A stretch of DNA of 44,459 bases from Phormidium sp. OSCR (lineage in GTDB: Bacteria; Cyanobacteriota; Cyanobacteriia; Cyanobacteriales; Geitlerinemataceae): positions 1-44,459 of the forward strand of contig LJZT01000027.1 of the NCBI GenBank assembly GCA_001314905.1. The letters are read 5' to 3'. Position numbers and translations under genes: made by a program. Shown piece by piece: positions 26,040-38,829 of the stretch. Numbering within the stretch: position 1 is the stretch's first letter; every line of letters begins with the position of its first letter. Below the pieces are notes generated by a model. It had not been told where the DNA came from. It was given only the letters and a program-made list of their open reading frames with translations, and ran no database searches.

Positions 26040-27380
26040 ATGACAGACATTCAAAGCCTTTCTAACCAAGTTCAAGAGATTGCCCAAAAAATCGGTATCC
26101 GTAAATACGACATCTCTGGTTCCAGTGTTGATGAAACCAGTGTTCAAGTTGATCGCGGCGAACCGAAACAAGTGAAAGCCTCCAATCGTTCTAGTGTGAC
26201 GGTGCGTGTCTGGAATGACAACAACACTGTGGGGATTGCTTCGACAACAGATAGCAATGCCAAGGGGTTGGAGTTGGCGTTAAAAACCGCCGCTGAAGCC
26301 AGTGAATTTGGGGCCAAAGATCATGTTCCTGATTTTAGCCCCGAAGCCACTAAACCGATCGAGAACTTGAAGACGGTTCAGGTTCCGCCGACGGAAGTGA
26401 CGGAACTGATTGAGCGGTTGGTGGATTTGGAGAAACAGTTACTTGATGCTCATCCGGCGATCGCCAGTGTTCCCTATAATGGACTGGCGCAACGAGATCT
26501 CGATCGCTTCTATCTCAATAGCGAGGGCGCACAGCGTCATGAAGCCCATTCTGTGGCTTCGGTGTACCTCTACAGCAAAACGGAACAAGAGGGCAAGAAA
26601 CCCCGTTCTGCGGGCGCTTATAAGGTGGATGTGGGAGTCAATTATCTGGACTTTGAGGGTTGCTTGAAAGAAGCGGCGGAAAAAACCATTTCCCACCTCA
26701 ACTATGAGAAAGTCAAAACTGGTAAATATCGGGTTGTCTTCTCCCCAGAAGCCTTTTTGAGTCTGATTAACGCTTTCTCTAATCTCTACAACGCTCAAAG
26801 CATTCTCGACAACCGCAGTTTATCGAAGCCAGACTCCCTAGGAACCCAGGTCGCATCGCCACTGTTGTCGGTGTTTAATGATGCCCTTCATGAGGATAAT
26901 CCTACATCGAGTTACTTTGATGGGGAAGGCACGCCAACGCGCCGGGTTCCCTTGATTGAAGCGGGTGTTTTGACGGGATTTCTGCACAGTGCGGGAACGG
27001 CGAAACGGATGAACGCGCAACCGACGGGCCATGCGAATATGGGTGCAAAAGTCACGATTAGTCCTGACTTTTATCATATTTTTGCGGCGTCGCAACCGGA
27101 ACAAACCTATTCTTTAGAGACTGAGGATAATCTGGTCTTTATTGATGATTTAAGTGCCTTACACGCCGGAGTGAATGCGTTGCAAGGGTCGTTTTCTCTG
27201 CCCTTTGATGGTTGGTTAATCAATAAAGGCGAGAAAGTGAGTGTGGATTCTGCTACGGTGGCGGGGGATATCCGCGAGGTTCTCAAGTCTATTATCTATG
27301 TGGAACCGGAGGCTGAGGTAACGCCAGGTGGGGTTTGTCCTCGCATCTGGGTGGATGGTTTGTCGGTGACTGGGGAGTAG
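26040..27380 (+). CDS. tldE: TldE/PmbA family protein
   Basis: 446 residues, the metal-free partner of TldD. Family pieces: KYDISGSSVDETSVQVDRGEPKQVKASNRSSVTVRVW near the N-terminus, then FSPEAFLSLINAFSNLYNAQSILDNRSL, PTRRVPLIEAGVLTGFLHSAGTAKRM and LQGSFSLPFDGWLINKGEKVSVDSATVAGDI at the end. It lacks the HExxxH motif, as expected. Probably cotranscribed with tldD through the inserted Uma2 gene. Confidence 0.93.
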   Translation: MTDIQSLSNQVQEIAQKIGIRKYDISGSSVDETSVQVDRGEPKQVKASNRSSVTVRVWNDNNTVGIASTTDSNAKGLELALKTAAEASEFGAKDHVPDFSPEATKPIENLKTVQVPPTEVTELIERLVDLEKQLLDAHPAIASVPYNGLAQRDLDRFYLNSEGAQRHEAHSVASVYLYSKTEQEGKKPRSAGAYKVDVGVNYLDFEGCLKEAAEKTISHLNYEKVKTGKYRVVFSPEAFLSLINAFSNLYNAQSILDNRSLSKPDSLGTQVASPLLSVFNDALHEDNPTSSYFDGEGTPTRRVPLIEAGVLTGFLHSAGTAKRMNAQPTGHANMGAKVTISPDFYHIFAASQPEQTYSLETEDNLVFIDDLSALHAGVNALQGSFSLPFDGWLINKGEKVSVDSATVAGDIREVLKSIIYVEPEAEVTPGGVCPRIWVDGLSVTGE

Positions 27381-27386
27381 TCGCCA

Positions 27387-27404
27387 ACCCCGATAATTTG
27401 GGGT
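27387..27404. terminator. Small hairpin after tldE
   Basis: ACCCC (27387-27391) and GGGGT (27400-27404) around GATAATTT, seven bases after the tldE stop. A near-identical hairpin occurs at 28767-28786. The stem is short, so this is a weak call. Confidence 0.35.
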
Positions 27405-27578
27405 GTGTTCCGGCGTTGTTTCATCTGTTGGGTTTAGCCTGTGGGGTGAAATGCGCCGGATCGAGAGGCGATCGCTACAATATTCATATAAACAGTCAAA
27501 AAATCACTGCCCTATTTGATGGTCAATCCTGGCTATAATTTATCAAGAACCGTAACAGATTCACATCCTGCCAACGTA

Positions 27579-27962
27579 TCACCAGACTCGATGAATAGAA
27601 TAGGCATCAAAAGCTGAATCGCAACTAATCAAAACCAAGCGATGATTCATGGCCTGTGCTATCAACATCCTATCAAAGGGATCGCGATGATGGAGGGGTA
27701 AACTCAGGTAGCACTCCGTATCAGCGAATGTAATGGGAAGAACTCCTATTTTTAGGTCTTGTAGCACTTCCTCTAATTCAGAGAAGGATTTCTGTAATCT
27801 CAGTTTTCCCAAACCCAATTTAATTGAAATTTCCCATAAACTAGCAATACTTAATGAGAGATTATGATTGACATCTTCTAGAATTTTGGTGGTTCTATCA
27901 CTTAAATTTTCACTGTCTTGCAAGTACCACAATAAAGTATGGGTATCCAGTAGGCAATTCAT
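27579..27962 (-). CDS. PIN-domain (VapC-like) toxin
   Basis: 127 residues. PIN fold with the acidic triad visible: D6 in CLLDTHTLLWYL, E44 in SLWEISIK, D93/D97 in HHRDPFDRMLIAQA and S/D near LVLISCDSAF. Family members are ribonucleases that cut tRNA or rRNA when released from their antitoxin. Encoded two bases after its probable antitoxin (27965-28183), so the pair is one operon. Confidence 0.9.
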   Translation of the reverse strand: MNCLLDTHTLLWYLQDSENLSDRTTKILEDVNHNLSLSIASLWEISIKLGLGKLRLQKSFSELEEVLQDLKIGVLPITFADTECYLSLPLHHRDPFDRMLIAQAMNHRLVLISCDSAFDAYSIHRVW

Positions 27963-27964
27963 CG

Positions 27965-28183
27965 TTACATATAATTTTTGAAATCTTCCAGAGGTTCATC
28001 AAAATCATCAGACATCCAGATTTGACCCTGCCACATCCCTAGTCCGCCTCGCCGGGGTGCTTTGGAGGTTGAAGCTGGGTCTGCGGCATATTGGTTCACC
28101 AAAAAATCTGTATAGTCCAAAACTGATTTTTTTACAGATTCTGGGAGTTTTTCAACATTTTTTAAAATTTCATTTTCTATCAT
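27965..28183 (-). CDS. DUF2281-type antitoxin
   Basis: 72 residues. N-terminal helices (NEILKNVEKLPESVKKSVLDYTDFLVNQY) and a C-terminal toxin-binding tail (RRGGLGMWQGQIWMSDDFDEPLEDFKNYM), the usual DUF2281 pattern. Directly upstream of the PIN toxin. DNA binding for autoregulation is expected but not shown. Confidence 0.87.
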   Translation of the reverse strand: MIENEILKNVEKLPESVKKSVLDYTDFLVNQYAADPASTSKAPRRGGLGMWQGQIWMSDDFDEPLEDFKNYM

Positions 28184-28507
28184 ATTTACTTAAAACTATG
28201 CGTCTCAATGAATGAATTTAATCTCGTATTTTGCCTTTACAAAAGCCTGGATTTTATGGGGGCAGTCCAACTGGGGGGGGTTATGGAAGCCCAACCGGTG
28301 GAGTATAGCGAGTGATGTTTACCCACTTAATTCTAATTTTCTTGTTTTCAAGATAACATACCCCGGCCATCAATGCCAGCAACAGGAGCCACAGTTAGGA
28401 GCGATCGCCCACCATTGCGGATAACATATCGGTGGAGACTCAGAAACCGGGCTTCTACCGGAGTTTTGCCTTCTCACAGGGATTTTGCCATCAACCCGGT
28501 TTCTATT
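28184..28507. other. Gene-poor stretch with decayed palindromic repeat
   Basis: No convincing gene; the open frame at 28212-28424 has no ribosome site or motif. The right part holds the inverted repeat listed at 28442-28504. Confidence 0.5.
28442..28504. repeat. AGAAACCGGG-bounded inverted repeat element
   Basis: AGAAACCGGG (28442-28451) and CCCGGTTTCT (28495-28504) flank a 43-base centre containing CACAGGGATTTTGCC. A decayed relative with the same centre (CACAGAGATTTTGCC) lies at 34365-34422. Elements of this kind are dispersed in cyanobacterial genomes; the family statement is from memory. Confidence 0.75.
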
Positions 28508-28777
28508 GTGGTGATTGATTTAGAAACCGGAGAGTTTGAAGTCGATGCGAGTGAAATTCCCGCCTGCGATCGCCTTGAAGCCACTCACCCTGATGCTCAA
28601 ATCTGGATTGTGCGAATCGGTTCGGGCTATGTCCATCGCTTCGGTGGACGAGCTAAGAGAAAGGAAGCAGAAAGTAGCCGAGAGGTTGTCAATTTATCCC
28701 ACCAACTGGGTCTAAAAACCCGTTGGAGTCAGCCATCCCTTGAGGGTGAACGAGAGGAAACCTACCCACCCCGATAA
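28508..28777 (+). CDS. Small hypothetical protein
   Basis: About 89 residues: VVIDLETGEFEVDASEIPACDRLEATHPDAQIWIVRIGSGYVHRFGGRAKRK and a polar tail. The first 55 residues read like a real, conserved domain (alternating strands and a helix). The open frame extends back to 28373 through the palindromic element, which is unlikely to be coding; GTG at 28508 or 28511 is a better start, although no ribosome site is seen. The element seems to have landed exactly at the 5' end of this gene and may have removed its original start. Function unknown. Confidence 0.45.
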   Translation: MVIDLETGEFEVDASEIPACDRLEATHPDAQIWIVRIGSGYVHRFGGRAKRKEAESSREVVNLSHQLGLKTRWSQPSLEGEREETYPPR

Positions 28778-28786
28778 TTGGGGGTG
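28767..28786. terminator. Weak hairpin between convergent genes
   Basis: CACCCC/GGGGTG stem around GATAATTG, between the small protein gene and the 3' end of the STAND ATPase gene. Same design as 27387-27404. Confidence 0.35.
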
Positions 28787-28807
28787 AGGTGTATTCGGGG
28801 ACTGGGA

Positions 28808-30154
28808 TTAGTTTGAGTCCCCGCATTCAGCCAAGTTGCGGATGTATTGTCGGATGACGGGCTGTAGGGTTAAATGGGATGAGGAGTCTAATAAGCTGCG
28901 TCGTTTGAGAGATTGGACGGCTTTTAAGAACTCTCGGTTCGATAAAAGATTGGAGGGTTTCTGGTTGATGGTGACGGGCGGGTTTTGCTGGGCTAACCAA
29001 TTTAGCAAGGTTTTTTCCGAGTCGCTGAGGCGTTGATAATGTCGGTTGAGGATGGGTTCTAAGTCTCCTAAAAAGAGACTGGGGTAGGAGAGGAATTGCT
29101 GGACGCTACCGTTGAACAAGTCATGGATGGTCGAGGCGGTGATATTGAGCCATAAGGGGTTATGGTTGAAGAGTTGGCTGAGTTCTGGCCATTGTTTGGG
29201 GTCTTGGAGTTGGCGATCGCGGAGAATTTGGCTGGCCAGTTGAGGAAACCCTTGAACGGCGAGGGTTTTACAGTGGTGGGTTTCTGTTTCTAAGGCGGCG
29301 ATGTCTGGGGGTTGTTCCCAAGTCAGCAGCAAAACACAACTTTGATGAGAGAGAGTCCCGAGTTCACGGATGAGTTGACTATAGCCTTGATAGTCTCGAC
29401 GGTAGCTTTCGACGAAGTGACCAGGGGTTAGGCTGTGTTGGAAGTCGTCGAGGATGATGAAGCAACGGTGAGTTCTCAGAGATTCTAGGAGGGATGGCTG
29501 GGGGGTGGCGGTTGTGGCGACAAACTGGCTGATGTGGTTTTGTAGGGTTTGTAGGTTGGGGAATTTTCGCTGGCTACACCAGAGGAGGCGATCGAAGTGG
29601 TCTTTTATTTGTTCGACGAGTTGTCTGGCGAGGGCGGTTTTACCGATTCCCGATAATCCGGTGAGGGTGATGATGCGGCTATGTTCGCTGACTATCCACT
29701 GTTTGAGGGTTGTGAGTTCGTTGTGACGGGGGTGGAGGCGATCGTATTCGGGGGCTTGGCTAAGATCCTGGCGGGGTATGGTATCGGATTGGCTACTGGT
29801 GGACGATGGGTTGGTTGAGTTTTTTGGCTCGTTGTATAACTCACTACAGACATTATTTATGTGATTGCCGATATGTACGCCATCGTTGTAATAAGAGAAT
29901 ATTTTATTTTCGATGAGCGATCGCACATTCTTTTTTTTAACATCCTCTCCCAGTAGTTCCGAGAGGAGTTTCCATAAGTCGGATGCTGATTTCCTGACGT
30001 GATCGCTCGTACAGTGGTATTCGTCTGCTATGTCTTTATATCCTTTACCTTGCCATGCACCTTCTAAGATGGCACGTTGCAGGCTATCTAGGTGTTTTCC
30101 CGTAGTCTTTAGAAGCAGGCGATCGGTCCACTGCAACGCTTCCTGAATCTCCAT
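28808..30154 (-). CDS. STAND/NB-ARC ATPase with N-terminal HTH
   Basis: 448 residues. Residues 1-80 form a helix-turn-helix-like domain (DSLQRAILEGAWQGKGYKDIADEYHCTSDHVRKSASDLWKLLSELLGE) of the kind put at the front of many cyanobacterial NB-ARC proteins (vWA-MoxR-associated type HTH, from memory). The NTPase follows: Walker A GLSGIGKT (166-173), Walker B FIILDDF (232-238), LLLTWEQ (275-281) and the GxP-like HNPLWLNI (331-338), then a winged-helix region to the end. No WD40, TPR or other sensor repeats and no effector domain follow, so it is a minimal STAND protein. It diverges from the six-gene AAA+ cassette across 226 bp and may regulate it or belong to it. Confidence 0.85.
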   Translation of the reverse strand: MEIQEALQWTDRLLLKTTGKHLDSLQRAILEGAWQGKGYKDIADEYHCTSDHVRKSASDLWKLLSELLGEDVKKKNVRSLIENKIFSYYNDGVHIGNHINNVCSELYNEPKNSTNPSSTSSQSDTIPRQDLSQAPEYDRLHPRHNELTTLKQWIVSEHSRIITLTGLSGIGKTALARQLVEQIKDHFDRLLWCSQRKFPNLQTLQNHISQFVATTATPQPSLLESLRTHRCFIILDDFQHSLTPGHFVESYRRDYQGYSQLIRELGTLSHQSCVLLLTWEQPPDIAALETETHHCKTLAVQGFPQLASQILRDRQLQDPKQWPELSQLFNHNPLWLNITASTIHDLFNGSVQQFLSYPSLFLGDLEPILNRHYQRLSDSEKTLLNWLAQQNPPVTINQKPSNLLSNREFLKAVQSLKRRSLLDSSSHLTLQPVIRQYIRNLAECGDSN

Positions 30155-30380
30155 AGCTGTTCACCCAGGTTATAGTTTTGTTATTCATGCACCCCCATTT
30201 TGGCACATTTTCACCTTTTTAGGCACAGAATATTATTTTTTATCACAATCCTGGTTTTGGGTCTTGAGTTTAAAGTCCCCCTAAGTCTTACATATGGGGG
30301 TTGGCAAATTGAAAATAAGTTGAGATGATAATGAATGAAAATTAGATCAGCCATGCTGGACTTTAATTAGAGTTAACTTT

Positions 30381-31115
30381 ATGATCTTAAACTGGTTTTC
30401 CCAAAAACCCTCTGAGGGGGAAAATAAAATAACTATCGAAGATGAAAAGAGAATAGTTGATTACATCAAAGAATGGTTGCCCGAAATCCTGGCAATACCA
30501 GAAATACAGACCATCATAACTTTTGAGCAGGTAGTTAGTTATTTCAAGAGTGATAAACCTCAAAATTCTGCGATCAGAACTGGGGTAACTATCCGACAAT
30601 CCCATGCTGAAGGACAACTTCTAATACAGATTTTTTTAGATCAGTATAACCAAATTATGTGCCGTCCAGATGGAAGTCCCTATGGTCGTCAGTTAGTTGC
30701 AAGAAATTTAGATAGAAAGTTGAGCAATGCCTTTGGATCTAACTATTTTACCTATGTCCAATTAAAAGATATAAATCCAAAAAGTGATCGCGTCGATCAG
30801 GATGTCTTTAGTCAATTCGGGGACTTGTTGCGTGATCTGCTTAGATTACCAGAAGTTATCCCCTTGATTAGTTATGACGATGCCATGAAATATTTCGTGG
30901 GAGATCGCCCAAACGATTCAAGAATCAAGAAAGGCGCTCTACTTCGGAAGCCTCATCCCCAAGGCTATCATATAGTTCAAATGTTTTTGAACCAAAATGA
31001 TGATTTAGTTTGTGACTCACTGGGTAGACCTTACGGTCGTCAGTTTATCGCTAGAGAGATAGATGAAGAGTTACAAGAGTGCTTTGCTGACAAAGATGTA
31101 ATTATTGTGCAATAA
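30381..31115 (+). CDS. Cassette gene 1: duplicated-domain protein
   Basis: 244 residues, no signal peptide or membrane span. Two tandem copies of one domain: residues about 25-130 and 145-244. Shared pattern: LP/IPE(V/I)..(I)I(S/T)(Y/F)(D/E)...(K/S)YF.(G/S)D(R/K)P..S.I..G...R..H..G....Q(M/I)FL(N/D)Q...(L/I).C...G.PYGRQ(F/L)(I/V)AR. No family recognised. The spacing of helices then strands suggests an adaptor or binding domain. First gene of the AT-rich cassette; the ribosome site is weak. The next gene starts 11 bases after it with a good ribosome site. Confidence 0.8.
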   Translation: MILNWFSQKPSEGENKITIEDEKRIVDYIKEWLPEILAIPEIQTIITFEQVVSYFKSDKPQNSAIRTGVTIRQSHAEGQLLIQIFLDQYNQIMCRPDGSPYGRQLVARNLDRKLSNAFGSNYFTYVQLKDINPKSDRVDQDVFSQFGDLLRDLLRLPEVIPLISYDDAMKYFVGDRPNDSRIKKGALLRKPHPQGYHIVQMFLNQNDDLVCDSLGRPYGRQFIAREIDEELQECFADKDVIIVQ

Positions 31116-31126
31116 GGAGACACAAA

Positions 31127-31450
31127 ATGGATCCAGTAACAATTTTAACTTGGGCGGCTGTCTGGGCAGCAGTTTCGATCGCTGGCTATGTGACAATAAC
31201 GTTTATTCTTCTAAGTTTAGATGAAATAGTAAATTGGTTTAGAAAAAATGCTTATGTGGTTGCTGGAAATGATCTAGGGTTTACTGTACAAAGGGCAATT
31301 GCTAGTGGAGAATGTAATGTAATTCAAGGGGTTTTTAGCCAAGATTCAGGACAAATCAAAAAACATCGGGTTATCAAAGCATCTAACGTTGATTCAGATC
31401 TACTTCAGGCCCATGATTATGGAAGAAAGGAAGTAGCAATTTATACATAG
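31127..31450 (+). CDS. Cassette gene 2: small membrane protein
   Basis: 107 residues. One N-terminal membrane span (ILTWAAVWAAVSIAGYVTITFILLSL), then WFRKNAYVVAGNDLGFTVQRAI and a C-terminal module: VIQGVFSQDSGQIKKHRVIKASNVDSDLLQAHDYGRKEVAIYT. The C-terminal module is shared with the next gene (VAQGIFAQ...VRVIEASSVDSEILKAHDFGKTELAFWS), so the two are paralogues. Ribosome site AAGGAG eight bases upstream. Unknown function; topology suggests a membrane-anchored partner of the AAA+ protein. Confidence 0.8.
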   Translation: MDPVTILTWAAVWAAVSIAGYVTITFILLSLDEIVNWFRKNAYVVAGNDLGFTVQRAIASGECNVIQGVFSQDSGQIKKHRVIKASNVDSDLLQAHDYGRKEVAIYT

Positions 31451-31458
31451 CAAAGCTT

Positions 31459-31791
31459 ATGAGCGCTTCGGACTATCCTTGGAATGCTTGGAGTGGTGCA
31501 TGGCCAAAGGTTTACTTTGTCCTTCTAACCGTATCTTCCTTAGTAAGTTGGTTTAGACAATTTGCAGATTTGATGGTTGAGAGCGATCGCCGGGAAATAA
31601 AAGATAGAGATTACCTAGAGTTTACTTTGCTAAAAAAGACTGAAAGCGAAAATTATCAGGTCGCTCAGGGAATCTTCGCTCAAAAAGACAGTAAAGTTTA
31701 TGACGTTAGAGTTATCGAAGCAAGTTCCGTAGACTCAGAAATACTAAAGGCTCACGATTTTGGCAAAACAGAACTTGCCTTTTGGAGTTAG
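31459..31791 (+). CDS. Cassette gene 3: paralogue of gene 2
   Basis: 110 residues. N-terminus SDYPWNAWSGAWPKVYFVLLTVSSLVSWFRQFADLMVE has a shorter hydrophobic stretch than gene 2, so it may be only peripherally bound. The C-terminal 45 residues match gene 2 (pattern V.QG.F.Q....V....VI.AS.VDS..L.AHD.G..E.A). Eight bases after gene 2; 67 bases before the ATPase gene. Confidence 0.78.
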   Translation: MSASDYPWNAWSGAWPKVYFVLLTVSSLVSWFRQFADLMVESDRREIKDRDYLEFTLLKKTESENYQVAQGIFAQKDSKVYDVRVIEASSVDSEILKAHDFGKTELAFWS

Positions 31792-31858
31792 TCAGAGGAA
31801 TCGCTGATATAGCTAATACATTCATCTACTTTCCGAGAACTTTCCAAAATCCCCAAAA

Positions 31859-32986
31859 ATGAACAAAGCTTCTTCTCTCATTGTACAAGGTATTCCCGAT
31901 CGCGTTCCTGAAGCGGTTGCTGCTGTTTGTCGTTCTAGACTTTTTAATGCAGTCAATAAGCTACTGGATGAAACTGATCTTGAGGAGATCCAGATTGCTG
32001 TAGGGACTCAATCGGCAAATCAGAAAAACGGTCAAAAATCAGCGGACGTATCTAACGATCCTGCAGAAAACAAATCTAACTACGATCTATCCCCTGAAGA
32101 CCGGGCCAAAAAATATCAACCCACTCAACCTTTATTTACTTTCGAGCAATTAGTTATCACCAACGAAGTAGAAGAAGACTTACTGTTAGCTGTTGACTTA
32201 ATTGAATTAGAATCCAAAGTTTTTGATGAGTGGGGGTTGCGACAAATTGAGCCTTTTCCTCGTACCGCTCTCAATTTTCATGGCAAACCGGGAACGGGTA
32301 AAACTTTAGCCGCACACGCAATCGCCTCTAAAATTAATCGCCCGATTTTGGTCGCCAGTTATGCTCAAATTGAGAGTATGTATCACGGGGAAGGACCCAA
32401 AAATGTTGAAGCTATTTTCATGGCAGCAGAGCGAGAAAATGCCTTGCTGTTTATCGATGAAGCTGACTCGTTACTGTCAAAACGACTAACTAGCGTCAAT
32501 CAAGGTTCAGAGCAAGCGATTAATTCCATGCGGAGTCAGCTACTTATCTGCTTAGAACGATTTCGCGGGGTGGTTATTTTTTCCACAAATTTAGTGGAAA
32601 ACTATGATAAAGCCTTTGAAACCAGGGTTCGTCATGTAAATTTTCCAATGCCAGACGAAACTTGTCGTCAAAAAATCTGGGCAAAACATCTCCCTGACAA
32701 AATGCCAAAAGCAGGAAATGTGTCCCTAGCAGAACTAGCTAAAGTTGATGATGTTTGCGGTCGGGATATTAAGAATGCTGTGATTGATGCGGCAATGCGA
32801 GCAGCTCGTAAAGGTAAAATCAAGCTTGAATTAACTGATTTCATCAAGTCAATTGAGGGAATAAAAAAATCTCGTATTAATACTTCTTTCGATGGAAGCT
32901 CTGAAGATTTAACACCTCAGGAGAAAAATTCAATTGAAGAAAAAATTAAAGCTGCTCTAGAAGAGGACGAAAAACATGAGGCATGA
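31859..32986 (+). CDS. Cassette gene 4: classical-clade AAA+ ATPase
   Basis: 375 residues. The N-terminal 90 residues are a helical part and a low-complexity linker. AAA+ core: Walker A GKPGTGKT (142-149), pore-loop-like MYHGE (174-178, with an aromatic Tyr as in Cdc48/FtsH-type unfoldases), Walker B LLFIDEAD (196-203), sensor 1 FSTN (241-244), arginine-finger region FETRVRHV (253-260) and sensor 2 GRDIKN (301-306). An acidic C-terminal tail (SIEEKIKAALEEDEKHEA) follows. No protease domain is present, so it may unfold or remodel a client. It overlaps the next gene by 11 bases, evidence of translational coupling. Confidence 0.9.
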   Translation: MNKASSLIVQGIPDRVPEAVAAVCRSRLFNAVNKLLDETDLEEIQIAVGTQSANQKNGQKSADVSNDPAENKSNYDLSPEDRAKKYQPTQPLFTFEQLVITNEVEEDLLLAVDLIELESKVFDEWGLRQIEPFPRTALNFHGKPGTGKTLAAHAIASKINRPILVASYAQIESMYHGEGPKNVEAIFMAAERENALLFIDEADSLLSKRLTSVNQGSEQAINSMRSQLLICLERFRGVVIFSTNLVENYDKAFETRVRHVNFPMPDETCRQKIWAKHLPDKMPKAGNVSLAELAKVDDVCGRDIKNAVIDAAMRAARKGKIKLELTDFIKSIEGIKKSRINTSFDGSSEDLTPQEKNSIEEKIKAALEEDEKHEA

Positions 32987-33494
32987 CGAAAAAGAAATTA
33001 GTAAAAAAATACTTCAGGCCCTAAAAAAACATCAAAAACCTAAAGTTTTTGATAAAAGTAGATTGTTTTTTTCTGCTTTTTTGGCTTTATTGATTGTAGT
33101 TTTTTTTGTATGGGAAAGTCAGCCTAGAATTAATATAAGCAAACTTAAAATCCAACACAATGTCAGTAGATCTTCAGGCAAAAATATAAAAATAAACTTT
33201 GAATTAAAGACGGCACACCTAGAAAATAATAGATGTAATGCTGTTGTATACTTTTATTATAAGAACGGCCGCAAGGTAAGAAGTACTATTCCTGGTTATA
33301 AAACAAAAAATAATCAATTGTCAATTCACAGAAGTTTTCGACCGACTTATCAATATTCGATATATAGAAATTATACTTTGTATATGCCGAATAAGCATTT
33401 TGATCGGGAAAATTACCAGGGAAAAGTTACAGCATACTGCGGTAACTTGTGGGCAAACAGAAAAAAATTTAATTTTACAATTGGTCGTCTTTGA
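32976..33494 (+). CDS. Cassette gene 5: anchored protein with beta-rich outer domain
   Basis: 172 residues. The N-terminal module MRHDEKEISKKILQALKKHQKPKVFDKSRLFFSAFLALLIVVFFVWES is a basic cytoplasmic helix followed by one membrane span (about 29-46). The rest (about 120 residues) is predicted outside the membrane and beta-rich, with two cysteines (NNRCNAVVYF and VTAYCGNLW) that could form a disulfide. The anchor module is nearly the same as in gene 6, but the outer domains differ. Starts inside the ATPase gene's 3' end. Confidence 0.8.
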   Translation: MRHDEKEISKKILQALKKHQKPKVFDKSRLFFSAFLALLIVVFFVWESQPRINISKLKIQHNVSRSSGKNIKINFELKTAHLENNRCNAVVYFYYKNGRKVRSTIPGYKTKNNQLSIHRSFRPTYQYSIYRNYTLYMPNKHFDRENYQGKVTAYCGNLWANRKKFNFTIGRL

Positions 33495-33520
33495 TAGAGG
33501 TTTAATAGAGGATAAAAAAC

Positions 33521-34081
33521 ATGAAGCATGATGAAAAAGAAATTAGCAAAAAAATACTTGAAGCTCTAAAACGACAACATAAACCAAAAATATTTGATAA
33601 GAATCGATTGATTTTTTCTTCAATTTTTGCTTTCATTATTATAGTTTTTTGGAATTGGAAAAGTGAACTTAAAGTTAATTTGTTTGGATTAGGTATTCAG
33701 AATGGTGTAAATGAGAACTCACAACCTCAGCTAAATCCAAAAGAAGTTATCACACAATATTATAATCTAGCTCCTTCTGATCGGATATCGGCTTTAAACT
33801 TATTGAGCGATGAGTATAAAGCATGGTACAACCAAAATGATGGTGGTAACAGTGCTAAAAGTTTTTGGAATACAATTCAGACAGTTGAAATATATGCTTT
33901 TTTAACTTTAAGCCAATCCGAAAATAAACATCAAATAAAAGTATGGTTAAAATACTTAACAGTTGATGGTTACACTGCCTGTGAGAGCCAGGTTATTGAA
34001 GTTGTATTAAGTCAGACGGAAAATAAGTGGTTAATTGATAAAACAGGCAATGTTGAACAAAAATTTAACTGTGAACAGTAA
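33521..34081 (+). CDS. Cassette gene 6: anchored protein with NTF2-like outer domain
   Basis: 186 residues. Anchor module MKHDEKEISKKILEALKRQHKPKIFDKNRLIFSSIFAFIIIVFWNWKS as in gene 5, then a linker and a domain that reads VITQYYNLAPSDRISALNLLSDEYKAWYNQN...FWNTIQTVEIYAFLTLSQSENKHQIKVWLKYLT...ESQVIEVVLSQTENKWLIDKTG. This helix-then-sheet pattern resembles the NTF2-like domains at the ends of cyanobacterial kinases and ARC6-type proteins (inference by eye). Faces periplasm or lumen if the N-terminus is inside. Ribosome site GAGG upstream. Last clear gene of the cassette. Confidence 0.78.
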   Translation: MKHDEKEISKKILEALKRQHKPKIFDKNRLIFSSIFAFIIIVFWNWKSELKVNLFGLGIQNGVNENSQPQLNPKEVITQYYNLAPSDRISALNLLSDEYKAWYNQNDGGNSAKSFWNTIQTVEIYAFLTLSQSENKHQIKVWLKYLTVDGYTACESQVIEVVLSQTENKWLIDKTGNVEQKFNCEQ

Positions 34082-34117
34082 TACGGACACTACCTACTTT
34101 TATTTCATAAAAATACT

Positions 34118-34204
34118 ATGCAAATCTTAGATTGGATTAGTCTATTCTTGAGTGGATTTTCTGGTATTTTTATTTTAAACAAACAAAAATCGTTTAAGTT
34201 TTAA
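34118..34204 (+). CDS. Possible 28-residue membrane peptide or truncated gene
   Basis: ATG to TAA: MQILDWISLFLSGFSGIFILNKQKSFKF. One hydrophobic segment and a basic end. It follows gene 6 by 36 bases on the same strand. Could be a small cassette peptide or the start of a truncated gene, since decayed sequence follows directly. No clear ribosome site. Confidence 0.35.
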   Translation: MQILDWISLFLSGFSGIFILNKQKSFKF

Positions 34205-34223
34205 GCTATGGAAACTATATTGC

Positions 34224-34301
34224 TATCGAAAGATAACAGGCGCACTAACCGCTGATGCCTATTTTAAACAAGCAGGATTTCGAGCGTTACTCACACTCTA
34301 G
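34224..34301 (+). pseudogene. C-terminal remnant of a PIN-domain toxin
   Basis: Frame reads YRKITGALTADAYFKQAGFRALLTL then stop. 'LTAD.HF.QAGF..LL' is a common C-terminal end of VapC-type PIN toxins, including the last catalytic Asp. No start or N-terminal part precedes it, so it is a remnant. Confidence 0.55.
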
Positions 34302-34364
34302 TACCTCTTAAGGTTTAGAAGTCGCCAAGGCGATCGCGGTGACACGTACCATATTCCTTAGTCT

Positions 34365-34422
34365 AACCGAGCTTTGACCAGAGTTTCCGCATCCCCACAG
34401 AGATTTTGCCCAAAAATCGGTT
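34365..34422. repeat. Decayed member of the AGAAACCGGG repeat family
   Basis: AACCGA (34365-34370) and TCGGTT (34417-34422) flank GAGTTTCC and CACAGAGATTTTGCC, the same centre as in 28442-28504 with one mismatch. Confidence 0.6.
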
Positions 34423-34541
34423 TGTGAGGTAAAATCGCTGTAAATCGAAACTCTCAACCCTGCCTGTCCAGACAATATGACCATAGACAGTCGAGAAACC
34501 ACTGCCATCTTTAATGGTCAATCCTTAAAATAAGATCATTA

Positions 34542-34772
34542 TTATCGCGTTGGCGACAGTTCTTCTTCTCTTGCTAGTGCCGCAGCATACGCGATCTCCG
34601 AGCGCACATTTTCTAAAGTTAATGGTGGATAGTCCTCAACAATTTCTGCTAACGTCAATCCCTCAGCCAGGTTATCCAGGATGACCGAAACCATAATCCT
34701 GGTTCCTTTAATACAAGGTTTGCCATGACAAATATTTGGGTTTTTCTCAATTTTTCCTTGCCAATTAATCAT
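34542..34772 (-). CDS. DUF433 antitoxin-like protein (orphan)
   Basis: 76 residues with the DUF433 signature: NPNICHGKPCIKGTRIMVSVILDNLAEGLTLAEIVEDYPPLTLENVRSEIAYAAALAREE. Such proteins usually precede a DUF5615 PIN-like toxin. Here the 230 bp downstream (toward 34310) hold only repeats and no toxin gene, so it stands alone. Ribosome site AAGGGC upstream is acceptable. Confidence 0.87.
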   Translation of the reverse strand: MINWQGKIEKNPNICHGKPCIKGTRIMVSVILDNLAEGLTLAEIVEDYPPLTLENVRSEIAYAAALAREEELSPTR

Positions 34773-34869
34773 GGTTTGCCCTTTTTAAAGATAACTCGTT
34801 TTGCTTGCATAAAACTAAAAACTTGTCAAGCAAATATACAGACTTATAGGGCAGAAGGGACACCCCACA

Positions 34870-35190
34870 GCAGGATTTAGTCCGCCGGGTGTAGCCGCCA
34901 GCCTGTACTTCTTCGTTCATGATATACAAAATCCCAAGGATGCCTTGCTAACTTCTATCAATGCGGGTGGTGATACAGATACCATTGGAGCTATAGTCGG
35001 TGGACTTTGTGGTGCTTATCACGGCTCAGAAGCTTATCAAGAATTTCTACCCTATCTGGTAGAATTGGATTTCATTTCTCTATCAGACGTAAACGCGATC
35101 GCCACATTGTTAAGTGACCAACTCATCCGCAGCCATCAAAACATCTGCATACAGTTGGCTACTAATGCGGAAATTTGCTTGTTGCATTAA
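34870..35190 (+). pseudogene. Remnant of an ADP-ribosylglycohydrolase gene
   Basis: The forward frame reads AGFSPPGVAASLYFFVHDIQNPKDALLTSINAGGDTDTIGAIVGGLCGAYHGSEAYQEFLPYLVEL. The GGDTDTIGAIVGGLCGA motif, with its paired metal-binding aspartates, is the C-terminal signature of DraG-like ADP-ribosylglycohydrolases. The N-terminal two thirds are missing, and the 3' part runs into the oppositely oriented toxin gene from 35110 on. A broken gene, probably cut by island rearrangements. Confidence 0.8.
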
Positions 35191-35604
35191 ACTATCCATA
35201 ATAGGCTGAACTTGCGTAATTATTGTTTGGCGCTTTGCTAAGAGAAGAATCCCTAAAACTCCTGTAATCTTTACCCCAAACTCTCTGGCAGTTTGTCTAC
35301 CCAACCGTTCATCAATAATTAAGCGGGCTGCTTTCATTTCGATCGCCAGTGCAATGGCTTCAGCCTCTCCCACATTGACACGGGTTCTTAAATCATTAAC
35401 TAACCTTTGATTTTGTACGGATTGAATATCCAGCCAAGTTGCCGATTGCACTGCTGTAATCACAATGTCCCCCGCTCTGGGATCCAATAATTCCTCATGC
35501 ACCGCACAGGGAATTGAAACTCTACCATAAAGCTGAGGAATTAGGCTAAATTGCTCAACCTTCGCTAAATTGGAAAGGGGTGAAGTGTTGCTGACGACAA
35601 TCAT
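35110..35604 (-). CDS. DUF3368 PIN-like toxin
   Basis: 164 residues. PIN-related fold: MIVVSNTSPLSNLAKV at the N-terminus, then IPCAVHEELLD, VGEAEAIALAIEMKAARLIIDERLGRQTAREFGVKITGVLGILLLAKR. The combination GEAEAIALA and IIDERLGR...A...G is the DUF3368 signature. Start taken as the ATG at 35604, which forms an ATGA overlap with the antitoxin stop; the frame opens at a GTG two codons earlier. It ends inside the ADP-ribosylglycohydrolase remnant on the other strand. Confidence 0.9.
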   Translation of the reverse strand: MIVVSNTSPLSNLAKVEQFSLIPQLYGRVSIPCAVHEELLDPRAGDIVITAVQSATWLDIQSVQNQRLVNDLRTRVNVGEAEAIALAIEMKAARLIIDERLGRQTAREFGVKITGVLGILLLAKRQTIITQVQPIMDSLMQQANFRISSQLYADVLMAADELVT

Positions 35605-35846
35605 GACCACTCCGTTTCCTCTAAAGTTTTGAGGTCTTCCTGAAACTCATCAATATCATAGTGAACACAAATCCCTCGCTCAGCAATCAGTTTTTGAAAC
35701 TGCATCCGATGCAGTCCCAATAACTCACTGGCTTTCCCCAAACTAATTTTATCTTGCTGAAACAACATCAGGACAATTTCCAACAATAGCTCATTTTCAG
35801 AAAAGCCACTCGCCTTTACTAGGTCATCAGAAATCACTAAACTCAT
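35601..35846 (-). CDS. UPF0175 family antitoxin
   Basis: 81 residues: ENELLLEIVLMLFQQDKISLGKASELLGLHRMQFQKLIAERGICVHYDIDEFQEDLKTL, the UPF0175 helix-turn-helix and C-terminal tail. These small DNA-binding proteins pair with DUF3368 toxins, as here, in an overlapping operon. It likely represses its own promoter. Confidence 0.9.
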   Translation of the reverse strand: MSLVISDDLVKASGFSENELLLEIVLMLFQQDKISLGKASELLGLHRMQFQKLIAERGICVHYDIDEFQEDLKTLEETEWS

Positions 35847-35946
35847 AGTAAACTCTCCTAAGCTGAAATCTTATGCTGAAATCTTAGCAGGCGGGGGAGC
35901 GATCGCCCACAATAGCGGATGCAATATCGCCTCTTGAAATTGCTCC

Positions 35947-38829
35947 TTACGAAAAAGTAGGAACCAACAGACGACTCACAATTCGTCCATCCTCAATTTT
36001 CTCAATCAAAAAGTCTCCCCCCATCTGACGCATTAACCGTTCAAAAATAATCAATTCCAACCCCGGTGGACGATCCAACGGTGACGCCACCAGCGGATCG
36101 CGATTCTCCCGTGGGGCACTGAGAATCGCTGGTTGAAATGCCCCTAAAATACGGGGACTTACTTCACCACTATCCGTAACCGACAGTTCCACAAACTCCT
36201 GATTTCCCTCACCTTCCTCAATGACAGAACGATACCAAATATCAATTCGTCCTCCCGTGGGCGATCGCCGACAGGCAGCCAACAACACCTCCACAAAAAC
36301 CAACTCAAACTTAGCCAGATCAGCATAAAGCGTCACATTTTGATCCCGATGCACCTGCATCCAAATCTGTCGTTTCGCCGTCGCCGGTTCAACCCGTTCC
36401 AATACCCGTGAAAACAGCCGCACAATAGAAATCGGTTCAGGATTCAATTGCAAACGCCACTGCTCATATTTGAGGAGATTCACCGCCCCAGTGAGATTAT
36501 CCGACAAATGACGTAGTAGTTCCTGGTGACGCACCTGTTGAACCGATCGCGCCCGACTATCATCCTCATCCAAACGAGATAGCCCTCCCGTCAAATCCGT
36601 CAACTGAGTCAGCTGCTTAATATCCAAGCCAATACCCCGATAAAGCTCCTCCAAACGGTGCTGTTTGTACCAATTCAAGGGGTCAAGGCGATCGCGATAG
36701 CGATTCAATCGTTTTTCCAATAACATCGCCCGTCGCCCCCAAGCCAACTGGCCCGCCAGCAATTCCAACGCCTCCACCTGACGCTCACCCCACTCCCGCT
36801 GCGGCGTATCTGCCACCAAAATCACCCCAGTGGCGCGACTGCTCGTGATCGTTTGCAGAGCGATCGCCCGCAACACCAATCCCTGCAACGGCTCCAACCA
36901 GGTCTGAGTCGCCGCCGGCAAACGCGTCACCGCAACCGGGCCAAACATCCCTTGCCAAGACATCACCTTTTGCAACAGTCGTTCTTTCTTAACATTAATC
37001 TCTTGCCCTTGAGGAATTTCATAGGCCTCCTGGGCCACCAACGTACTGAGCGTTGCCGTTTTTAACCCCGGCTCCCACGTCACTAAGCCAACAAACGGAG
37101 ACTCTAAAATCTCCGCCAGATAGTGTAAATGACTCGACTCAGCAGCCTGCCAATTGGGAGCGTTGGCCAAACAATCCAAACCATGCCGGATTCCCTTCAC
37201 CATCTGCTGATTTTGCTGACTGTTCTCCTGAATCGCTTGACTGCGCAGGATTTGCCCCACTTGACGACTCGCGAGCGTCAGTAACTCCCGTTCCGAAGTC
37301 GTCCAAACTCGCGACGACGGCTCAGCAATCACCACAAAGCTTTTAGGCAGTTGTCCCGGTTCTGTATTAGCAATCAGCGGCGATCGCACCCCCGCCTCAA
37401 TCAACAACGGTTGCCAAGACGTAAAGCGCATATCCCCACCGCCGCGAGTCGAGGCCTCATTAAAATCATCACTCAATTGCAGGGCGATCGCCCCCTCACT
37501 ATGTTGCAGCAACTGCCAATCCACAAAAGACAGGGAGGGAAACAACTCTCCCACCTCCCAACCCAAACTAGCCGGATAAGCCGACACCAGCTCAATCTGA
37601 TTCGTCTGTGAATCCGCCGAAAACACCAACACCGGCGCATCATGAAGCCGTTGACTGAGCCGTTGACTATAGCTGTTTAAACTGGTGGCTCCCTGAGGTA
37701 AACCAATCGTCAAATCGCGATCGAGTTCAATCTCGGCCATGCGCTCTTGCAGATGAGACAGCGGGGTCGTCAGGGCCACCAACTGAGCGGCCCCCCGAAT
37801 ATAGTCCTTCTCCCCTTCCTGCCAAATGCGGGCTTCCGTGCCTTCAACCGAGAGAAACCCTAATAACTTCCCTTTCGAGAGAATCGGCGCCGCCAGCAGC
37901 GATCGCGCGCCAATTTGGGCCATCAAACGACTCGTCGCATCGGCCTTGAGAGATGAGTAGGCTTCACCAATGGCCACGATACGGTTATCACAGAGGGTTT
38001 TATGAAAGCCGCTAAACTCCGCCAGAGGAATTTCCGTTCTGTCGCGATTCTCCGTTTCCTGACGAGAGGTGCTGCCGCGCGTGGCACTTTTGCGAAACGA
38101 GAGCGAGGCCTGTTCTTGAGTCCGTAACCAAAATAGGGCGCGATCGCCGTCATACCAATAAATATGCGTGCGAGCCGGTAGCAAAAACTGTTGCGTTGTG
38201 GCGACGATGTTGCGTAGGCGATCGTCGAGACTTTGGGACTCTTGCAACTGAGACATCATCTCCAACAGCGGCTCATGGGGACGTTTGAGCCGTTCCCGTT
38301 GCTGATCCATCTCCGCCTGATGCAACCCCATCGCCAACTCCCCGAAGAGCATCGACAGTAGCGATCGCTGCTCAACCGAGGGAAAATCGCCCCAGAGCGT
38401 TGAACCTAACACCACAACCCCAAAACACAGATGACGGTGACAGAGGGGAAAAACAACCGTTCCCTGGATACCATAACGACTAGCCACCGTTTGCCATTGC
38501 CCTGCCCGACTTTCTTCCCGTAAATCCGCCACTTGAACCGGTGCTTGTTGAATCACCGTTTGCTCCATAATATCCCCAGGACTCAGAGCAAACTGTTGAG
38601 GCAGAGTTTGCTGAGCCATTTGACTGAGTTCCCCATCAATCCCTCGTAAACGATGACTGAGGCGATCGTAGAGTCCGATCCAAAGTAGGGCGTAGTTAAA
38701 CTCAGTGCGGAGATAGTCTAAGGTCGTTTTCACCAGGATTTCAACCGTCTCCTGTTCCCGGAGGGTTTGTAGAGTATGACTGAGACTAACTAGAGGATTA
38801 GCGGAAGTGGTCGTGTAAGTATCTTGCAT
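35947..38829 (-). CDS. Multi-GAF signalling protein with degenerate kinase domain
   Basis: 960 residues, soluble. At least three GAF-like modules can be traced: about residues 20-170 (YALLWIGLYDRLSHRLRGIDGELSQ...GTVVFPLCHRHLCFGVVVLG), 200-350 (THIYWYDGDRALFW...SLLAAPILSKGKLLGFLSVEG) and 560-690, with another weaker one in between. The C-terminal 220 residues resemble a histidine kinase: a dimerisation helix (RHQELLRHLSDNLTGAVNLL) and an ATPase-like domain. The N-box reads FVEVLLAACRRSPTGG without the catalytic Asn, and the G1 box is VTDSGEVSPRIL rather than DxGxG. Kinase activity is doubtful; it may be a pseudokinase sensor. No response regulator is adjacent. Confidence 0.8.
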   Translation of the reverse strand: MQDTYTTTSANPLVSLSHTLQTLREQETVEILVKTTLDYLRTEFNYALLWIGLYDRLSHRLRGIDGELSQMAQQTLPQQFALSPGDIMEQTVIQQAPVQVADLREESRAGQWQTVASRYGIQGTVVFPLCHRHLCFGVVVLGSTLWGDFPSVEQRSLLSMLFGELAMGLHQAEMDQQRERLKRPHEPLLEMMSQLQESQSLDDRLRNIVATTQQFLLPARTHIYWYDGDRALFWLRTQEQASLSFRKSATRGSTSRQETENRDRTEIPLAEFSGFHKTLCDNRIVAIGEAYSSLKADATSRLMAQIGARSLLAAPILSKGKLLGFLSVEGTEARIWQEGEKDYIRGAAQLVALTTPLSHLQERMAEIELDRDLTIGLPQGATSLNSYSQRLSQRLHDAPVLVFSADSQTNQIELVSAYPASLGWEVGELFPSLSFVDWQLLQHSEGAIALQLSDDFNEASTRGGGDMRFTSWQPLLIEAGVRSPLIANTEPGQLPKSFVVIAEPSSRVWTTSERELLTLASRQVGQILRSQAIQENSQQNQQMVKGIRHGLDCLANAPNWQAAESSHLHYLAEILESPFVGLVTWEPGLKTATLSTLVAQEAYEIPQGQEINVKKERLLQKVMSWQGMFGPVAVTRLPAATQTWLEPLQGLVLRAIALQTITSSRATGVILVADTPQREWGERQVEALELLAGQLAWGRRAMLLEKRLNRYRDRLDPLNWYKQHRLEELYRGIGLDIKQLTQLTDLTGGLSRLDEDDSRARSVQQVRHQELLRHLSDNLTGAVNLLKYEQWRLQLNPEPISIVRLFSRVLERVEPATAKRQIWMQVHRDQNVTLYADLAKFELVFVEVLLAACRRSPTGGRIDIWYRSVIEEGEGNQEFVELSVTDSGEVSPRILGAFQPAILSAPRENRDPLVASPLDRPPGLELIIFERLMRQMGGDFLIEKIEDGRIVSRLLVPTFS

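Follow-up and report, generated by a model that had tools for sequence, protein, structure and literature searches.

A small AAA+ ATPase encoded among membrane proteins, in DNA rich in A and T, raises the question of which genes form a unit with it and what such a unit may do. The locus lies at positions 30381–34081 of a 44,459-nucleotide stretch of Phormidium sp. OSCR (GenBank assembly GCA_001314905.1, contig LJZT01000027.1), the whole of which is called here the window, and a sequence-only reading of the window had described it as a unit of six genes serving membrane-linked remodelling or defence. Judging from sequence comparisons, the gene set is real, conserved and, as far as searched, unnamed, with a scope larger than six genes and a plausible mechanism. 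The unit is both larger and smaller than the one proposed: it includes g0, a divergent gene of the STAND class, and genes 5 and 6 are variable. The main features are the following:

g0: 28808–30154, minus strand, 448 amino acids (aa); N-terminal region resembling a helix-turn-helix (HTH), followed by a predicted NB-ARC/STAND NTPase; divergent from the cassette
g0–g1 intergenic region: 30155–30380, no strand; candidate operator, with CAC elements at 30204, 30212, 30224 and 30244
gene 1 (g1): 30381–31115, plus strand, open reading frame (ORF) of 244 aa; two copies of a predicted shared small domain, no membrane segment
gene 2 (g2): 31127–31450, plus strand, ORF of 107 aa; membrane segment and the predicted shared domain at the C-terminus
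gene 3 (g3): 31459–31791, plus strand, ORF of 110 aa; paralogue of g2, membrane segment marginal by hydropathy
gene 4 (g4): 31859–32986, plus strand, ORF of 375 aa; predicted AAA+ ATPase of the p97 class, N-terminal region specific to the family, no match to proteases
gene 5 (g5): 32976–33494, plus strand, ORF of 172 aa; N-terminal tail and membrane anchor, variable outer domain
gene 6 (g6): 33521–34081, plus strand, ORF of 186 aa; tail and anchor as in g5, outer domain without detected similarity to that of g5

The six plus-strand ORFs are tightly packed, as the sequence-only reading had it: genes 4 and 5 share 11 bp, and the remaining gaps measure 11, 8, 67 and 26 bp. The higher A+T content that it reported relative to the flanking DNA also holds, the GC fraction of 30381–34081 being 0.367, compared with 0.499–0.552 in 281 equal-sized windows outside 27000–36000.

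Conservation and Distribution

Relatives of the AAA protein were collected by a protein scan of genome contigs, which gave 20 loci. Cyanobacteria account for 15 of them, a single Microseira genome contributing two, and the other five come from Armatimonadetes, Geobacteraceae, Planctomycetia, Thermoguttaceae and Acidobacteria, with one locus each. When the window's own proteins were used as tblastn queries, g1 was found in 13 of the 20 loci and g2/g3 likewise in 13, while an adjacent and divergent g0 was present in 12, all of them within the 15 cyanobacterial loci. The hidden Markov models (HMMs) of g1, g2/g3, AAA, g0 and the anchor were built from the same loci on which they were then run, and the tblastn count is therefore the independent measure of co-occurrence. 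These loci show that g0, g1, g2/g3 and g4 recur together, with their order kept. The co-occurrence expected across genomes was thus found for genes 1–4, which form a conserved set in cyanobacteria and partly elsewhere; the six genes as such are not the unit, since g5 and g6 vary and the divergent STAND gene, overlooked before, is included in most cyanobacterial loci. Co-inheritance was assessed from pairwise distances among nine cassettes, and those of AAA correlate with those of g1 (r = 0.83, Mantel p = 0.0005), of g2/g3 (r = 0.63, p = 0.0010) and of g0 (r = 0.65, p = 0.0065, the g0 of L029 being a fragment).

Among 386 cyanobacterial genomes, drawn evenly, 3 contain g1; the g2/g3 profile matched these 3 and gave one further, weak match within a long frame. 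At 1e-60, 10 genomes were matched by the AAA profile, the four strongest matches being those of the three g1 genomes and of a fourth, G103. The set is rare, yet coherent where present. The two samples overlap, as one drawn genome, G227, appears to be that of locus L011. Partners are missing in part through a contig end (L023) or decay (L014, L022); decayed cassettes were observed at L014, L022 and L062, with a truncated g0, with g1 or g1/g2 missing and, in L022, with an interrupted AAA gene.

The AAA+ ATPase

By its sequence, g4 is a classical-clade AAA+ ATPase of the p97 class. It matches Pfam AAA at 4.9e-24 (85.7 bits, cut-off 21.2), the match to the AAA lid being weak, and comparison of its profile with solved structures gave VCP-like ATPases as the best PDB matches (171.8 bits). 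No protease or peptidase family occurs among its 13 Pfam matches, and the earlier assignment to the classical clade without a protease domain is borne out. In an alignment of 18 proteins, consisting of g4 itself and 17 of its 20 relatives, there is no variation in Walker A (GTGKT), Walker B (FIDEAD), R256 and MYHGEG of the pore loop, which also confirms the aromatic pore loop (MYHGE) recognised beforehand. The core, with Walker A and B, a weak lid match and an aromatic pore loop, is common to p97/Cdc48, PAN and Vps4-type AAA+ proteins; unlike these, g4 has a single AAA domain, a short N-terminal region of its own and small transmembrane partners in its operon. An identity as FtsH, whose AAA chain carries a zinc protease domain and two N-terminal transmembrane helices, was rejected, as there is no peptidase among the 13 Pfam matches and no 19-residue hydropathy window above 1.6. 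A check for phage origin on viral contigs returned 8 loci with 23–34% identity to the AAA protein.

A Common Domain in the Small Proteins

Gene 1 had been read as a duplicated-domain protein, and indeed the profiles of its two halves align with 100% hhalign probability. The second half also aligns with the C-terminal part of g2/g3 (93%, P = 3e-7) and the first half does so at 66%, with all 12 control comparisons at or below 0.3%; at the level of profiles, these alignments show one common small domain in g1, g2 and g3. In AlphaFold2 models, each half of g1 is predicted to be β-α-β-β-β-α-β and g3 to contain a matching β-β-β-α-β. The description of g2 and g3 as small paralogous membrane proteins stands for their paralogy (33% identity); by the Kyte–Doolittle 19-residue maximum, the membrane segment is clear in g2 (2.05), as it is in g5 (2.31) and g6 (1.68), and marginal in g3 (1.32). 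The C-terminal side of the hydrophobic segment is the more positive one in 16 of 19 g2-type proteins, and by this charge rule the shared domain of g2/g3 should lie inside.

Several candidate identities were weighed. A PCNA chain was the best of four PDB profile matches of g1 (3.5e-5), but this match is built up from three weak stretches and lacks credibility. Hen1_L matches g1 at an E value of 0.0059 and is absent from the other 13 members. PUA_3 matches weakly in 4 of 14 g1-type members (best 0.011). FtsH_ext is attractive by its pattern for g1–g3 and matches one of 19 g2-type members at 1e-4, but profile comparison (hhalign 0.2–2.3% with four FtsH sequences) and a scan of ten further small proteins gave no support. 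The g2/g3 profile had no match in PDB, and PHROGs gave no match for g1, g2, g3 and g6 and one weak match for g5.

On a plasmid of Planktothrix agardhii, five small proteins (one g1-type and four g2-type) precede an AAA relative of 57.5% identity, and the shared domain also ends an Hsp70-like/TPR protein encoded upstream of AAA; on the other side lie a divergent STAND-type gene (HTH plus AAA_35) and a CHASE2 gene. In the Geobacteraceae locus, an FtsA-type actin-like ATPase with an SHS2 domain is encoded two genes upstream of g1-g2-g2-AAA (L024:2613-3848), in parallel to the Hsp70-like protein of Planktothrix. In two planctomycete loci (L026, L027), g1-like proteins, another small transmembrane family and a TerB-like gene adjoin AAA, TerB in L027 being matched by Pfam at 8.3e-9.

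Anchors with Exchangeable Outer Domains

The N-terminal 50 or so residues of g5 and g6, an inner tail and a membrane segment, are common to both and to the downstream gene of L010–L013; between g5 and g6, tail and anchor are 55% identical over 67 aa, and the outer domains have no detected similarity. Of the 20 loci with an AAA relative, 4 have the anchor, as does L064, which duplicates the L011 contig; a model seeded by the same g5, g6 and L010–L013 sequences was run on the 1931 ORFs from 36 loci and found no further members. The outer domain that follows the anchor is of the g5 type in L010 and L011, of another type in g6 and of a third in L012/L013, so that a constant anchor with variable outer domains, as anticipated, is borne out on a small sample with three types. 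The N-terminal side of g5 and g6 is basic (8 K/R in 20), which is consistent with a topology having the N-terminus inside and the outer domain outside; on this ground, the outward orientation suggested for the anchored proteins is kept for g5 and g6 only.

The STAND Protein and Its Upstream Repeats

From its sequence, g0 is assigned to the NB-ARC STAND NTPases, as it matches Pfam NB-ARC with 37 bits (cut-off 23.5) and NB-ARC is found in all eight aligned g0 proteins; its PADLOC matches, to several models, are at 7e-4 or weaker. The g0 family is numerous, with 3, 19, 20, 13, 4, 13, 16 and 8 matches in eight genomes. An AAA profile search gave 13 AAA places, including AAA subfamilies with other small partners, and at 10 of these the AAA operon has a divergent g0-type gene, which is full-length in 6 cases and partial or weak in 4; 20 further g0 neighbourhoods contain mostly other cargo. 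The closest relatives of the window g0 are two g0 genes that lie beside other cargo (68% and 59%, cassette g0s reaching at most 45%), and the window upstream DNA is 78% identical to theirs, as mean column identity, over nearly the whole 226 bp. Since both the protein and its upstream DNA are closest to these two genes, regulator and operator are read here as having been exchanged as a unit.

The g0–g1 intergenic regions contain CAC-bearing direct repeats about 10 bp apart, and in the window the spacings of 8, 12 and 20 between CAC elements correspond to a degenerate direct-repeat array, a putative operator. Upstream of other g0-type genes the repeat units, with a 9–10-bp period, are GTACTTTTC in L072, TCCGACATTT in L098 and L125, CTAACATTTT in L100, CCAACAATTA in L106 and TCAGGTATTT in L112–L114. 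The mean relative lag-10 signal was 0.162 in 20 held-out g0-type genes and 0.008 in 124 control intergenic regions (Mann–Whitney p = 7e-7, an optimistic value, like the other repeat p-values, since several g0 regions in both sets, such as L112–L114, are related), and 15 of the 20 exceeded the controls' 95th percentile (0.097); in the discovery set the mean was 0.108, with 19 of 36 regions above that percentile. The 10-bp period had been noted before the held-out genes were fetched, and the exact lag-10 statistic was fixed after their sequences and the lag spectrum had been seen. Ahead of the lag-10 comparison and the ACWWW counts described next, five g0 pieces with an unnatural N-terminus were dropped by judgement (L013, L014, L022, L029 and L062), as was L064, a duplicate of L011. 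A first statistic, tetramer recurrence, gave p ≤ 0.05 in 12 of 42 g0 regions and 13 of 126 controls, and an ACWWW core, chosen after the sequences had been seen, was present in 16 of 36 discovery regions and 6 of 124 controls. The g0-type family is thus preceded by direct repeats of 10-bp period with gene-specific units.

STAND transcription regulators are exemplified by MalT, LAL and SARP-LAL proteins, which combine an HTH and a STAND NTPase with upstream direct repeats, as g0 appears to do; unlike them, g0 has its putative HTH at the N-terminus, weakly similar to sigma region 4, no recognised sensor repeats and 10-bp units that differ between paralogues.

Some further loci of the family were observed. 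The window's genome contains another g0-type HTH gene (G000:C183, L119), with a 218-aa frame and 10-bp-phased TCCGTC-type repeats upstream. In a second AAA subfamily (L065, L066, L068, L069) the operon encodes proteins of about 143, 113 and 190–207 aa and AAA, and two of the four have a divergent g0-type HTH gene; in a third (L070, L071, L072) a full-length g0 is divergent from an AAA of 284–299 aa, and small downstream ORFs have about 115–125 and 132–133 aa. At L110:6921-11140, a g0-type gene is divergent from genes for two vWA-like, one phosphatase-like and one kinase-like protein, a cargo which we take to resemble the TerY triad, these names being given by inspection. In the window, a CCCCC...GGGGG inverted repeat at 30277–30300, between the array and g1, is possibly a leader hairpin; a similar one is found in both related g0 upstream regions, shorter in G261.

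Proposed Role and Alternatives

The reading proposed here, to which we give slightly less than an even chance, is that of a portable, STAND-controlled membrane AAA+ cassette, in which g0 would be a STAND transcription regulator and the p97-class AAA+ protein would pull on membrane-anchored subunits via the shared domain. The g0 protein would oligomerise on its repeat array through the HTH and switch the divergent operon off or on, and a signal would lead to production of g1, the small anchored proteins and the AAA ring. The shared domain would be held at the inner face of the membrane by g2 and g3, with g1 as a soluble two-copy protein; the g4 hexamer would recognise this domain and, via its aromatic pore loop, pull on, separate or reload the anchored subunits, as Vps4, Msp1 and p97 do with their clients. 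Through their inner tails, the anchors g5 and g6 would link the complex to outer domains exchanged from genome to genome. The outcome would be an inducible membrane response, more probably against stress or invaders than for housekeeping, a role that we infer only, from the rarity of the set, its high A+T content, its patchy occurrence at a synteny breakpoint and its company. With regard to the remodelling or defence module suggested originally, the membrane link and the p97-class ATPase stand, whereas defence is not supported, the flanks being mixed.

A number of observations weigh against this reading. G103 has AAA and a g0 fragment without g1/g2, L014 lacks g1, no adjacent g0 is present in L020, L021 and L025, and g0 was not found in any of the five non-cyanobacterial AAA loci. 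The Planktothrix AAA has ESPLLGVG where the others have ESMYHGEG, with no aromatic residue, and threading may therefore not be general. Matches of the N-terminal HTH of g0 in Pfam are weak (Sigma70_r4_2 in 2 of 8, best E 0.014). The shared domain has no credible match in Pfam, PHROG or PDB, and Foldseek and VIA-align searches with the g1 and g3 models gave none either (E values no better than 5e-3 and 0.16, VIA Z scores up to 4.0 and 3.7); these models are of middling confidence (predicted local distance difference test 74 for g1 and 68 for g3), and the absence of a fold match therefore means little. The window's own array has a lag-10 score of 0.03, below the 95th percentile of the controls, and among ten cassette loci five are clearly above that threshold, L019 is borderline and the window, L011, L017 and L018 are not above it; the ACWWW core generalised poorly, to 4 of 20 held-out regions (6 of 124 controls, p = 0.03). 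Lastly, 92 flank proteins from 13 loci (non-core ORFs of 100–1299 aa in 13 of 14 loci, L013 contributing none) are a mix of housekeeping, transposon-type and toxin-antitoxin-type proteins and scattered PADLOC matches. The latter amount to 45 PADLOC families at 1e-10, with 15 single-member families and 7 Cas12f/u models among the 25 listed, and since a matched control is missing they lead to no conclusion on a defence island.

Different explanations were weighed against the STAND-controlled cassette. In one of these, rather doubtful, the set would serve membrane-protein quality control or act as an envelope-stress chaperone, the AAA+ protein extracting or refolding damaged membrane subunits as in Psp, Ter and Msp1-like systems, with no role in defence. 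A p97-class AAA without protease match would suit this purpose, and so would the links of its relatives to the Hsp70-like/TPR protein and, in the two planctomycete loci, to the TerB-like gene; moreover, classical AAA+ proteins beside PspA/Snf7 in membrane systems are described in the accessible part of PMC11237479. Rarity and patchiness (g1 in 3 of 386 genomes) and variable outer domains speak against it, as does the lack of PspA or Snf7 matches among the cassette proteins in Pfam. An anti-phage defence of the IetAS type, completed by a protease encoded elsewhere, is quite improbable. Indeed, among the PADLOC models matched by g4 (IetA, TRIP13, AbiO and Nhi, from 9e-24 to 3e-4), IetA is the best, with 82.6 bits; on the other hand, the NCBIfam IteA model gives 73.8 bits with a cut-off of 510, and PAN (102.7 bits), FtsH (84.1) and CDC48 (76.6) all score higher than IteA, all below their own cut-offs. 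A Pfam search limited to the proteins g0–g6 and to nine proteins of the window flanks found no S8 peptidase; PmbA was the sole peptidase match in these, and g1–g3 match no peptidase family. IetAS itself was thus rejected as an identity: g4 is far below the cut-off, no adjacent S8 peptidase was found and the partners are different, even though IetAS is the best PADLOC relative of g4.

A further explanation concerns g0, which, instead of being the regulator, would serve the complex as an NLR-like sensor or effector, with an HTH that binds protein and with the repeats belonging to another factor. The accessible part of PMC7159879 argues that, in bacterial conflict systems, the mode of action of STAND proteins is closer to that of their eukaryotic counterparts than to that of transcription regulators, and no sensor repeats are recognised in g0; we nevertheless consider it unlikely, as arrays with gene-specific units are found together with the N-terminal HTH region also where held-out members have short frames (L118–L123, 162–223 aa), and the window g0 has upstream DNA in common with its closest relatives beside other cargo. 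That the genes became neighbours by accidental accumulation in a decaying island, with no joint function, is suggested by the decayed copies L014, L022 and L062, by toxin-antitoxin-type genes on both sides and by the synteny breakpoint; this was already disfavoured, and is highly improbable, since all cassette ORFs of the window are open and closely spaced, order is kept in distant genomes and distances are correlated.

Beyond the single cassette, we tentatively put forward, with more doubt than trust, a class of membrane-remodelling conflict systems in bacteria, with multiple subtypes, in which p97-class AAA+ proteins would act on small transmembrane proteins tagged with a new domain and would be switched by a large NLR-like STAND family (3–20 matches per genome in the eight genomes), each member reading its own 10-bp array; many insulated immune or stress circuits would thus coexist in a genome, with regulator and operator exchanged as a unit. 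The set offers a small defined bacterial system for the joint study of a p97-class unfoldase, anchors with a common tag domain and an NLR-like protein. The repeat arrays also turn the role of many cyanobacterial HTH-NB-ARC proteins into a simple question, namely whether each binds its own array and controls the neighbouring operon; if so, these proteins would represent a natural set of orthogonal regulators.

Relation to Known Systems

The full gene set of no system named in PADLOC is present, in agreement with the view that the cassette is not one of these; g1, g2, g3 and g6 have no match there, and g5 has one candidate model at 0.005. Titles and the starts of abstracts of the papers listed by literature searches gave no name for the set, supplements, most subscription papers and most full texts being outside this search. 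The MoxR-vWA ternary systems (one adding an FtsH-type classical AAA+), EACC1 and related NTP-dependent conflict systems, as presented in the accessible part of PMC7159879, likewise bring together, in cyanobacteria and planctomycetes, a remodelling ATPase with variable partners and with STAND NTPases, and none described in that part has the make-up of the cassette. The cassette differs from them by its classical-clade ATPase and membrane-anchored subunits; MoxR-vWA systems were rejected as an identity because none of the seven proteins g0–g6 matches a vWA or MoxR-type family in Pfam. Cyanobacterial sigma70-region proteins with NB-ARC or AAA_35 domains, of the same broad architecture as g0, are treated as sigma70 homologues in the accessible part of PMC11119718, which mentions neither repeat arrays nor AAA cassettes. 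As far as the corresponding parts of the sources go, an ECF-like HTH is fused in conflict proteins (PMC8195603), and TAACTGA repeats (PMC4679880) are a 7-bp phenomenon, different from the 10-bp arrays. On a Paraburkholderia megaplasmid (L038:3743-8280), a related AAA gene is followed by coiled-coil-like, MotA/TolQ-like and OmpA-like genes, which by inspection are reminiscent of Zorya-type membrane parts.

Neighbouring Genes

Toxin-antitoxin genes had been noted on both sides of the cassette, and Pfam indeed identifies families of this type there:

27579–28183: PIN and DUF2281 (toxin-antitoxin-type)
34542–34772: DUF433 (toxin-antitoxin-type)
35110–35846: DUF3368 and UPF0175 (toxin-antitoxin-type)

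Between the first pair and g0, at 28212–28777, two short ORFs are perhaps remnants; the one of 134 aa has no match in Pfam. Farther out, the window contains genes for PmbA (26040) and for a 960-aa GAF-domain protein (35947). A clean empty site was not demonstrable from these flank genes in the four genomes G002, G066, G296 and G118, the two genes being on separate contigs in G118 and, in G002 and G066, having their cassette-facing sides pointing away from each other. The distance between PmbA and the GAF-domain gene is about 47 kb in both G002 and G066 and about 82 kb in G296; given this separation in the three searched genomes of the same genus, the cassette is placed at a synteny breakpoint.

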